64,000 bases of DNA from positions 54,823,250 to 54,887,249 of the forward strand of contig CM049318.1 in the NCBI GenBank assembly GCA_026874595.1, in the 5' to 3' direction. The position numbers were made by a program, and so were the translations under genes. The stretch comes from Sipunculus nudus. Lineage: Eukaryota > Annelida > Sipuncula > Golfingiida > Sipunculidae. Below the pieces are notes generated by a model that worked only from the letters and a program-made list of their open reading frames with translations, did not search any database and was not told where the DNA came from. The first letter of the stretch is position 1. Each line of letters opens with the position of its first letter. Below are positions 17,302 to 45,500 of this stretch, piece by piece.

Positions 17302-19187
17302 GGGCTTGATATCAACAGTTAACTGGTTGCCTGGAGAAAGTAAAAGTTCCAGAAAATGGTTGTAGGGCAACCAAAAATGGGCTGCAATTTGGTTAGGTGG
17401 GTCCAACCTAAACCTTTACAAAAAGGCTTGATTCTGAACTAATGGTTGCCATTTTCTTGGAGAAATTAAATCATACTGTAATACTTCTATCTTTAATTAC
17501 CTGCATGTTTATCTGTGCAAAAGCTAAAGATAAATATTATTAACATAAAAAAATTAGCACGTGTATATTTTTGCTAAATATCTTGCAAATATATTCATGT
17601 GGAACACACTTGATGTGTTTGTGGCTGTGATCACTTTTTTTAAATACAAGTAAAAATTCATGTAGGGCATCTAAAAACTAGATGTTAATGGCCCTATTGG
17701 GCAAGTACTTTCAAAAGTTAACTAGAATACGGGTAGTCGACAAGCGACTACGTGTATCCGCCTAAATCAGAGTGGAACGGGTGAAGTGAGGCATGGATTG
17801 AGTGGCAAGGGGAAATAGAGTGTTGCATATAAGCATGGATGTCTGCAGCCAAATGGTGTATGTAGGTTGCCCCCCTACCACAAAATCCAGAAAGCCGTCC
17901 AAGTTGTATACATATGCAAAATTTAAGGCAGATAAGTCAAACCACTACATGTGATTTTAGCCCGTGGCAGACAAACAGATGGACGCTGAGCAAAAATGGT
18001 TGCAGGTGACGCCACCAGTTTTGCGTATGATAAAGAGCTATGTGAGAACTATACACATGCAAAACTTTGGCCCAATCGGTCAAACGGTTCCCAAAATATG
18101 AGCTTGGATGTCTGCTGCATAAACTAGAATGCAGGTGGCGCCACCTGTCATAAAATCAAGAGAGCTGTCGGGGATGTCTAAACCTGCAAAATTTTAGGCA
18201 GATATGTCAAACCACTGCCGAGATATGAGTGATTTTATCTCATGGCAGAAAAACAGACAGGAGCTGTGCAAAAATTGCTGCAGGTGGCGCCACCAGTTTT
18301 GCGTATGATAAAGAGCTATGTGAGATCTATACACATGCAAAATTTTGGCCCAATCGGTCAAACGGTTCATGAGATATGAGCTTGGATGTCTGCAGCGTAA
18401 ATGTGAAAGTAGGTGGCGCCACCTGTCATAAAATCAGAAAAGCTATCCAGGATGTATACGCATGCCGAATTTCAGGTGAATTAGTCAAGTCACTGCAGAG
18501 ATATGAGTGATTTTAACCCAAGGCAGATGAACAGATGGACGCTGTGCAAACATGGTTGCAGGTGGCGCCACCATTTTTTGTGTATGTTATAAAGCTCTCC
18601 AAGGGCTACATTTGTGCTAAAAAATTTTCCTGATCGGTCAAACGGTTCCCGAGATATGAGCTTGGATGTCTGCAGCGTAAACGTGAATGTAGGTGGCGCC
18701 ACCTGTCATAAAATCAGAAAAGCTATTACAGGATGTTTACGCATGCTGAATTTCAGGTGAATTAGTCAAGTCACTGCAGAGATATGAGTGATTTTAACCC
18801 AAGGCAGACGAACAGACGGACACTGTGCAAACATGGTTGCAGGTGGCGCCACCATTTTTTGTGTATGTTATAAAGCTCTCCAAGGGCTACATTTGTGCAA
18901 AAAAATTTTCCTGATAGGTCAAACGGTTCCCGAGATATGTGGGTTTATGTGTGGAAACAGACGCACAAACGGACGCAGAGCGCAGAGGAAAGGTCAGAGG
19001 TCAAAACAAAATCGGGGCGCAGCAGTTCACATGTGACCCGAACATAATCCCGGGATTCGTAAAATTCCGCCTAGCGGTTACGGAGGAGTTCTCCGGACAC
19101 CTACGCGTCGGCGGCGGCGGCGGTGTGCAGCTGAAAACATAGTATCCGCAAAACTCTGTTTTGGCGGATACAATTAATGTCAAGCCT
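17302..19187. mobile_element. MITE with TIR GGCTTGACATTAA, split by a Helentron-like element
   Basis: Left end GGGCTTGATATCAACAGTTA; right end TTAATGTCAAGCC (inverted). A second, uninterrupted copy at 52412-52843 shows that 17720-19176 is a later insertion between ...TTTCAAAAGTT and AATGTC.... Without the insert this copy is about 430 bp. Confidence 0.8.
17720..19176 (+). mobile_element. Helentron-like non-autonomous element, family iii
   Basis: 5' end AACTAGAATAC followed by the hairpin TAGTCG-ACAAG-CGACTA and the subterminal TATCCGCC. The core has about four units of roughly 280 bp, each with GGTGGCGCCACC (18286, 18563 and 18845 mark successive units). Then come a short (GGACGCA)-like tract and GGCGGCGGCGGCGG. 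A 3' hairpin has arms TATCCGC-AAAAC and GTTTT-G-GCGGATA, then CAATT. The empty paralogous site at about 52810-52850 shows no target-site duplication. No ORF beyond chance. Confidence 0.8.
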
Positions 19188-19651
19188 TGGTGACACTAAC
19201 TTATGCAAGTACATGTACTGGTATAAATCAAATTAAAATAAACTTAACAATAATCTTATGTAAAGATATTAAAAAAGGTCATATGCCAAATTCTATAAGC
19301 AAGGAAGAAACTGTTTTAATTCTAAATACTGAAAATACCTCTATGAACCCTGGGCATGTATCTATGTTTACTAGAAAGAAAAAGATCACAAACAAATGCA
19401 GTGGTTTTACATACTGGGGGAAGGATAGCAAAACCATTCTCAATTTTGTAGAAAATCTGGAGGCAAAGCCAAATAATTAAATGAAAATTCAGAGAAGAAC
19501 TTTTCACCACTCATCAAGGGAGTTGCAGCCTGCCAACAAGAGCAACAACAAATATAAGAAATAACATAAAGAATTAAACAGTATTGTGCATGTACACGTG
19601 TATATCTATTGATATCTAACACAATATTATATTTGAATATACTACAAACTG

Positions 19652-42500: not shown

Positions 42501-45500
42501 ACATGTGACCACAGATCCTTACCAATGATAGCGATCTCCACCATTATCCAGAGTAATATACGAGGAACTTTAGGGTACTGTCTCTGACACACTTCCGCCA
42601 GATTCAGGCCCGACACAACACCAAGACGAGCTGACAACCGCTGCATCAACAGACCCAGTAACGTAGACATCAGCAGCACCCATAACAACTGAAAAAGGGT
42701 CATAGCAACAGTAAAACAACCATAGCAACTGTAAAATACCCATGGCAACTGTTTAACATCCATATAAACTGTAACACACCATAAACTGTTAAACACCCAT
42801 TGCAACTGTAAAACACTCATAGCAACAGTAAAATACCAAAAAACTTTAAAACTTCCATATTATTAAAACATCCACAACTGCAAAATATTCATTAAATGGA
42901 AACCCAAAAACACACTTTAAAATATGTATGGTAATTTGGTAACTATGAAACATGAACAGCAACTGCAAACTTATGTAGGGCTTCAACTGGGATAGAATGA
43001 TAATAAAAGCAACAAAATAAAAGCAACTGTATAACATGCATAGAGTTCTTATTAAAATTTTAGAACACAGATACTGTAAATAATCAAAGAAACTGTATAG
43101 GTCTCTATAAATCTTAGGGAAACTATAACAGACCCAAATCTAATGTAAAACATTGATGGAAACTGTTACACACCCTCACCATATATTATATATTTAACAA
43201 ATAAATGTTAATGCAGGTTTGAACTATTAAATTAAGATTAATTCAAGTTACAAAGATGTAAGTAACTGTTTTTATAATAACTTTTGGAAATACTTCTCAA
43301 TTCCTTTTGTGTGACCTTGTCACTAATACTGACCTTGAACTTTGCCACAGCACCAGATTGAAGGTCAGACTCAATGTTTCCAGGGTCAAGGTAGGCAATG
43401 CTCATTAGAAACCCGGGACCTGTGAATGCCCATAGTGTCCGAAAACTGAATTTTTCCTGAAATAAAATGAAGTTATTCTTGACATTTTCACTCAGTTACT
43501 TGTTTCAACTCATGTCAAACGTTTCCCAATAATTTTAATGGATAAATTGTAAATGGTTATAATATGATGGCATGGCCTTTCAGTCTTTTTAAACCAATAT
43601 CTGGCTGCCCTTGAGCTTCCTCCATTAACTTGAAAACAAACACACATGGGCTAAGATGCTCCGCTGGATCTGACAAACTACTAAAGGCCACAGCGCATAT
43701 TATTATTATTACAACATTTGTATAGCACCCCAATCTAAAAATAATTAGCTCTAGCGTGCTTTACATAAAAGATATGAAAACATTATAAAAGATGACGGCA
43801 TAAAAGGTTTAAAAAAGAAACTAGAATATCAGCAGAAGCTGACAAAAGCCCTCAGCCAAAAGAACAGTGTTTAAAGGTGGTAACAGTAACAAGTACTAAA
43901 TATCTGTTCTCACATGGATGTATATCTGTACATGTCTCAGTTATAAATTTAAAATGGAGAGGTATGTACTATGATTCATAACAATCCACCAAATGCTTCC
44001 TGAAAAATACGCTTCTAAGTTTTATTCTATTATAAGCTCTGTGACCTTGAAAAGTAGGTCAAGGTCACCCATCTTCGAACTTGACCGAGAATTTGTCGAT
44101 ATACATCTTCACCAAAGAAATAAAATTCCTATTGTGAATCCTTTTTGAGATATCCTGCTCACAAGGCCAAAGTTGAAAAATCCCCGAAAAATTCATTAAA
44201 AATCAGAAATTGTAGGTGGCACCCCTAAACTTGTGCAGCAGTTACAGACAATCAGTCTCTATGATCATAGTAAGTATTGTGAAAATCTACCCAATGGTTC
44301 CTGAGAAATAAGCTTCTAGATGTTTTTTCTAAAATCAGCTCTAAAATGTAGAAAAATAGGTCAAGGTCACCCATCTTCGAACTTGACCGAGATTTTGTCA
44401 ATATACATCTTTACCCAAAAAATGAAATTCCTACGATGAATCCTTTTAGAGATATCCCGCTCACAAGCCCAAAGTTGAAAAATCCGATAAAAATTCATTA
44501 AAAATCAGAAATTGTAGGTGGCACCACCAAACTTGTGTAGCAGGTACAGACTATCAGTCCCAATAATCATAGTAAGTTTTGTGAGAATCCACCAAATGGT
44601 TCCTGAGTAATAAGCATCTAAGTGTTTTTCTATAATCAGCTCTAAAATGTAGAAAAATAGGTCAAGGTCACCCATCTTCGAACTTGACCGAGATTTTATC
44701 GATATACATCTTTACGGAGGATATAAAATTCTGACGGTGAATCCTTTTCCAGATATCCCGCTCACAAGGTAAAAGTTAACGGACGCCGGACGGATGGGCG
44801 GACGGAAGGACAGACAGCTTGGGTGACCACAATAGCCCATCAGCCTAAGGGCTGAGGGCTAAAAAGCCTAAAAATAACACTGCACTACAGATTAAATTCT
44901 GTTTAAAAAGAAATGTTTTAAGTGGTTTCTTAAAGGGGCCCAATCACCTATACAGCATGTTGAGTTAACACGAAAAATAGCTTCATCACTTTAAAATAAA
45001 TATGTACCTGCCAAAATATTGCCCTGAAACTGTTTGCTTTCTCCTGTAAACAAATGTTAAACAAAGTGGACCGGGCGCGATGAATGGTGTCAACATAAAC
45101 ACAGCGCGTAGTGCCATGTGCAGGGCTGAGCCAAAACACGTCTCAATCAGGAGATGCCCTGTCTGAATTGGCCCAAAAAATGTAATACATGTTTCTGCTG
45201 ACTGAAACACAGCCTGTTATCCCTCTTAATTGGACCTACAGTCACGCGGCCTTGTCATGGTAAACAGACTGTGTTTACCAACACTTGGAGCCATAACATG
45301 GTGTTAAACAGCTGTATACGAGGAATTTTGACTGTGTGCTGGGATGGTTTTAGAGGGAAACATTTGCATAAAGCAAAACTGAACTAATAGTGTGAAAGAA
45401 TAGCCATTATTTAGCTCCTGATTATGTCCCTTTAATAGTGGGAATAGAGCCAGCATTGCTGATGCTGGCAGGTAAACTGTTCCAGAGTTTCGAGGCGTAA

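Follow-up and report, generated by a model that had tools for sequence, protein, structure and literature searches.

We analysed a stretch of 64,000 nucleotides (nt) from the sipunculan annelid Sipunculus nudus (assembly GCA_026874595.1, contig CM049318.1, positions 54,823,250 to 54,887,249 of the forward strand), called the window below, in which members of five repeat families, i to v, are found. The five families are genuine and recently active, and they are very probably non-autonomous rolling-circle transposons of the Helitron2/Helentron type, that is, Helentron-derived short elements (HINEs). All mapped copies lie on the minus strand, except for one partial copy of family v. Family ii is present as one element at 38917..40541, with its 5' end GTATCGCCAGACA at 40541 and its 3' CTAG at 38917-38920. 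Family iii occupies 17722..19171 (5' GTATCCGCC) and family iv 43821..44860 (5' AGCCCTCAGCC followed by its inverse), both closed at the 3' end by a palindrome and CTAG. The family v element at 24723..28091 holds two consecutive arrays, with the 5' subterminal repeat GCGAACCTGTG at 28079-28090 and a 3' palindrome followed by CTTG. A second v copy is represented by its 3' part (58007..58660) and a third by its 3' end only (1..83, plus strand), the remainder of which lies beyond the window. An i-like 5' module stands at about 59023-59058, upstream of the v-type 3' end, so that 58005-59058 is a possible chimera or a pair of neighbouring fragments.

Family i is the most scattered. Its copies are found at 10146..11294 with a decayed 5' module (11263-11294), at 28531..31180 in a long form built of tandem units of about 680 nt with a GTCC tract at 31071-31135, at 31533..31975 in a short form, and at 59662..63910 again in a long form, with a T-run reaching 63915 (all minus strand). 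In addition, a 5' module at 15869..15901 (minus strand) has no located 3' end. The further pieces of the family are thus 3' ends at 28529 and 59660 and 5' modules at 11.3, 15.9, 31.1 and 63.9 kb. The copy at 59662..63910 has both ends of type i, its 3' end coming from a younger set than its 5' end, and may be one element or a composite.

On the minus strand the elements present one order of features. A T-rich flank is followed by the 5' subterminal repeat and, after a few bases, by the inverse of that repeat. Next come a microsatellite (GTCC/GTC or CCG) and the tandem core, and the element closes with the 3' subterminal repeat, then a palindrome and CTAG or CTTG, before a T of the host. The same order has been published for Helitron2 (PMC3627910) and for HINEs (PMC4067079, PMC7492417), as far as the available parts of these papers describe it; here and below, cited sources are represented by such parts. 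A reading made from the window alone (hereafter the sequence-only reading) had placed AACTAGA or AACAAG at the 5' terminus. Since the minus-strand order matches that of Helitron2 and HINEs, the supposed 5' motif is the 3' terminus: AACTAG and AACAAG are the reverse complements of CTAGTT and CTTGTT, and represent the Helitron-like 3' end of elements on the minus strand (on the plus strand for the copy at 1-85). The end words, hairpins and subterminal inverses of that reading are all present in the window sequence where it had placed them, as are the CGGA or GCG tracts, and its assignment to HINEs agrees with the published plan and with the boundaries reported below. That all five families follow one plan is borne out for the subterminal repeats, the palindrome and CT(A/T)G, although not for the 5' hairpin, which is unclear in v.

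Short asymmetric subterminal inverted repeats are found in all five families, the inverses being located at 40529 (ii), 19163 (iii), 44850 (iv), 31965 (i) and 28079 (v, with one mismatch). As read off the sequences, the 5' repeat sits at the very end of the element while the 3' one lies about 20-31 nt inside. In families i to iv the 5' repeat pairs with the nearby inverse, with predicted folds of -15 to -21 kcal/mol. A palindrome follows the 3' subterminal repeat in every family, and for ii, iii and iv the folding prediction for its stretch yields this stem-loop. The microsatellites are GTCC in i (broken in iv), GTC-rich in v, and CCG in ii and iii. As for the canonical Helitron 3' signal, CTRR after a hairpin and before a host T, families ii, iii and iv have CTAG|T, and i and v have CTTG. 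The canonical 5' traits, namely 5' TC, insertion between A and T, and no 5' hairpin, are not those of our families, which start with GTATC or AGC preceded by T in nearly all copies and which in i to iv carry a 5' hairpin. Rfam and tRNA scans of the window found nothing.

A blind scan of the window for the whole plan (palindrome, CT(A/T)GTT, subterminal repeat and inverse) gives five matches, whereas 100 dinucleotide shuffles average 0.54 and never exceed 3. Four of the five are families i (at 59660), ii, iii and iv; the match at 1941 sits in a simple tandem array and was dropped as an element. Family v and those copies of i that are imperfect escaped the scan. The palindrome with CT(A/T)GTT alone occurs 22 times, with a shuffle mean of 10.1 and a largest value of 20, and therefore word and palindrome by themselves are insufficient. 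A hairpin of any kind stands behind 7 of the 15 AACTAGA and 13 of the 62 AACAAG in the window.

The ends were then compared among copies throughout the genome assembly (1.43 Gb, 153 contigs). A first look yields 3573 candidates for family ii, 3022 for iii, 253 for iv and 4422 for v, and for i 1287 by its 5' end and 1508 by its 3' end. In each genome search 40 candidates were scored, and all boundary results come from the best-scoring copies; the sets of iii and iv (30 loci each) include the window copy. At the 3' side, family ii ends in CTAG|TT in all 20 fetched copies, 18 of them with both ends, and family iii does so in 30 of 30 loci. Family iv shows CTAG|T in 30 of 30 loci (TT in 26 of these), and family v CTTG|TT in 20 of 20. 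For family i, judged by alignment ends, each of the 39 other copies extends across the motif, with 35 starting at most 7 nt outside it, four at query positions 11-22 and none at position 1. Within the window, likewise, the copies compared (four of family i, three of family v) agree up to CTTGTT and diverge beyond. The best-scoring copies end at the motif and keep it, as the sequence-only reading had supposed of its ends and insertion boundaries.

At the 5' side, the flank of family ii is T-N-A-T-T, with T, A, T and T in 18, 15, 17 and 18 of 18 copies, respectively. Family iii has T(A/T)ATT in its 13 usable copies (T at -5 in 11, A at -3 in 12, TT in all 13). Family iv, with 5' ends in 27 loci, mostly presents TTTTT|AGC, the five positions being T in 25, 23, 22, 26 and 25 of 27; in one of its loci (L069) the 5' end was set by an alternative rule and is doubtful. 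In family i the T-run ends outward at window 63915; of 39 other copies, 29 stop at the equivalent of this position, and the full set stops between query positions 223 and 233. The 5' ends therefore form two classes, ii and iii at TNATT|GTATC, and i and iv after T-runs and before AGC. HINE ends may themselves serve as mutual targets: a iv copy lies beside a iii copy in locus L074, and a v copy beside an i copy in L099 and L107, at the T-run.

The insertions were also compared with empty sites. For 43 insertions of families ii, iii and iv that had sufficient sequence at either side, the flanks were joined and compared (BLAST defaults) with the window sequence and with every other locus fetched; a spanning match is found for eight, with one clean case in each family. 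The ii insertion in L018 has three paralogous empty sites of 95-97% identity, one of them at window 59826-60043; the empty site reads ...CTTATTACTG..., while the filled one reads ...CTTATT|element|TTACTG.... The iii insertion in L058 against L079 is likewise clean, and so is the iv insertion in L079 against three of its four paralogues, namely L076, L007 and the window; both show a gain of the element plus TT. The joint is shifted when iii in L058 is set against L053, and agreement at the joint is poorer for ii in L030 and for iv in L075, L076, L078 and L087, because T-runs and divergence blur it. On the whole, the clean empty sites of ii, iii and iv show a T-rich or TT target without ordinary target duplication, apart from an ambiguity of 2 nt. 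Over the last 400 nt the mean pairwise divergence is 1.5% in ii (20 copies), 2.5% in iii (30) and 5.1% in iv (30), figures that are biased towards young copies since the copies are the best-scoring ones.

The sequence-only reading had taken the cores of the five families to be unrelated, and our analysis suggests otherwise. The word GTAGGTGGC(A/G)CCACC is present with at most three mismatches in the cores of all five. Arrays of a divergent monomer bearing the GGTGGCGCCACC palindrome are found, on the plus strand, at 17813..18952 in iii, 39205..40452 in ii and 43968..44626 in iv, and shared monomers at 24878..25117 in v. Profiles built by leaving one family out recover the left-out family in register; the two v arrays were always left out together. 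The units for these profiles had been chosen by the palindrome, and therefore a second test was made with the palindrome removed. All seven units of iii, all five of v and both of iv are then recovered. The signal is weaker elsewhere: the four listed units of ii are recovered with E from 0.0016 to 1.9 (two at 0.089 and 1.9), both units of the second v array with E of 0.05 and 0.14, and for family i one of two units, a partial one with E of 0.0017, the unit at 10954 being missed. The profiles also match unlabelled stretches outside the training set at 17.8, 31.6, 40.4, 44.0 and 58.2 kb. Judged from these profiles, the cores of the five families appear related through one divergent monomer. A text search of the literature with the palindrome word found no paper on repeats, and a scan of viral contigs with a family i word gave no match. 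Two words from mollusc repeats were also used for scans, which gave no match in three cases and three bacterial contigs in one, which we take as chance. Another monomer, at 237-316, stands in the opposite orientation and suggests a further plus-strand element.

Helentron genes are present in the same genome. Pfam Helitron_like_N gives 143 genome matches (195 candidates, 150 scored), seven of them in open frames longer than 2200 amino acids, and none in 14 control genomes. The locus L112, read over 2183 amino acids to the end of the locus, contains DUF6570, OTU, Helitron_like_N, PIF1 and Exo_endo_phos domains, and L113 contains Helitron_like_N, PIF1 and Exo_endo_phos_2. By their domains, these are Helentron proteins (Rep, PIF1 helicase and endonuclease). 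Copies of the L112 lineage lie on contigs C7, C3, C2, C1, C8 and C14, and downstream of the gene the lineage has an array of tandem units of about 325 nt. Matches at about 81% to a 269-nt part of it are dispersed over 24 other places. An autonomous Helentron here therefore likewise carries a tandem array. This array differs from the monomer of families i to v. A CTTG in L112, lying about 4.9 kb downstream of where the Rep match begins, was considered as an autonomous 3' end and rejected, the copy L116 continuing alike beyond it.

How the families move can be pictured with such proteins. The Rep/helicase(/endonuclease) of autonomous Helentrons would nick the T-rich 5' junction, the nicked strand would be peeled off until halted at the 3' palindrome, and a cut after CT(A/T)G would release a product to be joined into a T-T site. 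The ends, boundaries, target, young copies, empty sites and Helentron genes are observed in this genome; beside them we infer the enzyme used, the positions of the nicks and the role of the palindrome as terminator. The sequence-only reading had further proposed that the shared motif defines one mobilising enzyme group. This is not shown here, since there are two classes of 5' ends and targets and none of the families is linked to an autonomous partner; the search for partners that it had suggested did reveal Helentron Rep/helicase genes, although none tied to the family ends.

Several results weigh against assigning the families to HINEs. The best-scoring copies favour intact ends, and so do the queries for iii, iv and v, which began at the motif and thus under-represent decayed ends. 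Family v has no clear 5' hairpin (predicted fold -6.1 kcal/mol, the matching inverse being absent), the 3' palindromes of i (loop of 0 nt) and v (loop of 2 nt) are not the predicted fold, and the CTTG of i and v falls outside CTRR. Among the empty sites, iv in L079 differs from L080 by 3 nt. Since the clean sites gain two Ts, a 2-nt duplication and a TT borne by the element are indistinguishable; Thomas et al. assign Ts of this sort to the element (PMC4067079). No autonomous element sharing the ends of i to v was found among loci whose read parts stop short of the element ends. Neither L112 nor L113 has a blastn match to the window or to loci L001-L091, nor a convincing match to the monomer profile, so that they are unsupported as the source of the cores.

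Taken as a different kind of element, the families could be cut-and-paste transposons resembling miniature inverted-repeat elements (MITEs) and driven by a DDE transposase; they are indeed short and non-coding with inverted repeats near both ends, and the bivalve pearl element was originally named a MITE (PMC7492417). We give this very little credence, since their repeats are subterminal and asymmetric, the two ends are unlike, the 3' end is a palindrome plus CT(A/T)G, and clean empty sites lack a target duplication beyond the ambiguous TT. It is also highly improbable that the orientation of the sequence-only reading was correct after all, with AACTAG/AACAAG and its hairpin as the start of replication and the other end as the terminus. 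Boundaries alone cannot give strand polarity, and there is no linked autonomous partner to fix it; however, the position of the microsatellite, the order of repeat, palindrome and end, and CTAG|T all fit the published 3' ends, and would be misplaced if read the other way.

Accepting HINEs in the orientation given here, there is still the question of how the five are related. Five unrelated families might have acquired the same end signals by convergence and each taken up its core independently, which would agree with subterminal repeats that differ among families and with the two 5' classes. We consider this unlikely in view of the monomer recovered across families by the leave-one-family-out profiles, also with the palindrome excluded (more weakly for i, ii and the second v array). 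Our own tentative proposal, possible without being the probable outcome, is that a Helentron-type group with a Helitron-like CT(A/T)G|T 3' signal and two target classes, TNATT and T-run, mobilised several HINE families, and that these families exchanged a single old monomer with its palindrome among different end modules, core and ends evolving separately. The case also advises caution, as strand polarity and the relatedness of cores are easily misread from a single window.

Other features of the window are few. Peptides resembling exons of Nramp/SLC11 are seen by eye over 33562-43495 (minus strand), and at 42425-42859 a Pfam Nramp match of 2.7e-18 is obtained; the family ii element is located between two Nramp-like exons on the same strand. 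In the Pfam scan, which covered ten open reading frames of the window (where 99 of at least 70 amino acids are listed), this exon alone matched. Peptides at 45536-45953 (minus strand) look by eye like the final part of a LINE reverse transcriptase. Two direct repeats, each about 660 nt long and with 611 nt identical between them, lie 3.57 kb apart at 53335-53995 and 56908-57568 and start with TGTTATGG; the pair is LTR-like and perhaps a young non-autonomous LTR element.

Much of this architecture is already published for oyster: subterminal repeats, microsatellite, tandem arrays and TT targets (PMC7492417), and CTAG 3' ends (PMC7992393). By its description, Cg_HINE of Crassostrea gigas shares with our families the 5' repeat and inverse, a GTCY/GTCC microsatellite, a tandem array, the 3' repeat and palindrome, a T-rich/TT target, two-array elements and a constant array orientation, and differs in that the available description mentions neither a CT(A/T)G terminus nor a TNATT target (PMC7492417). 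The same study was unable to relate its HINEs to autonomous elements. To find the enzyme of such families, ends and insertion sites tested against the genome are needed, and these are obtained here for abundant young HINEs. The sequence-only reading held the end motif to be under-described, which is too strong: it is a CTRR-like Helitron end, and oyster Helitron-like elements have a hairpin and CTAG 3' end with subterminal repeats in 257 of 751 (PMC7992393). Those elements have 5' TC and mostly insert at A^T, whereas here a T precedes the 5' end and two families have CTTG. A CT(A/T)G|T end together with a TNATT target in bivalve HINEs was found nowhere in the literature searched, which took in few subscription papers and no supplements. 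The bivalve monomers BIV160/Cg170/CvA are similar, by description only, in being divergent with two short motifs conserved across elements (PMC5139131). A 3' CTAG within a Helentron-like lineage is known from Proto-Helentron of Phytophthora infestans, which differs in its A^T insertion, its autonomy and its typical Helitron structure (PMC4067079). Finally, FoHeli1/2 of Fusarium, in the Helitron2 group, are autonomous and end in ATTTT at the 3' side, unlike our families, but have hairpins at both ends and asymmetric inverted repeats as here, and insert after TNAT, like ii and iii (PMC5148889).

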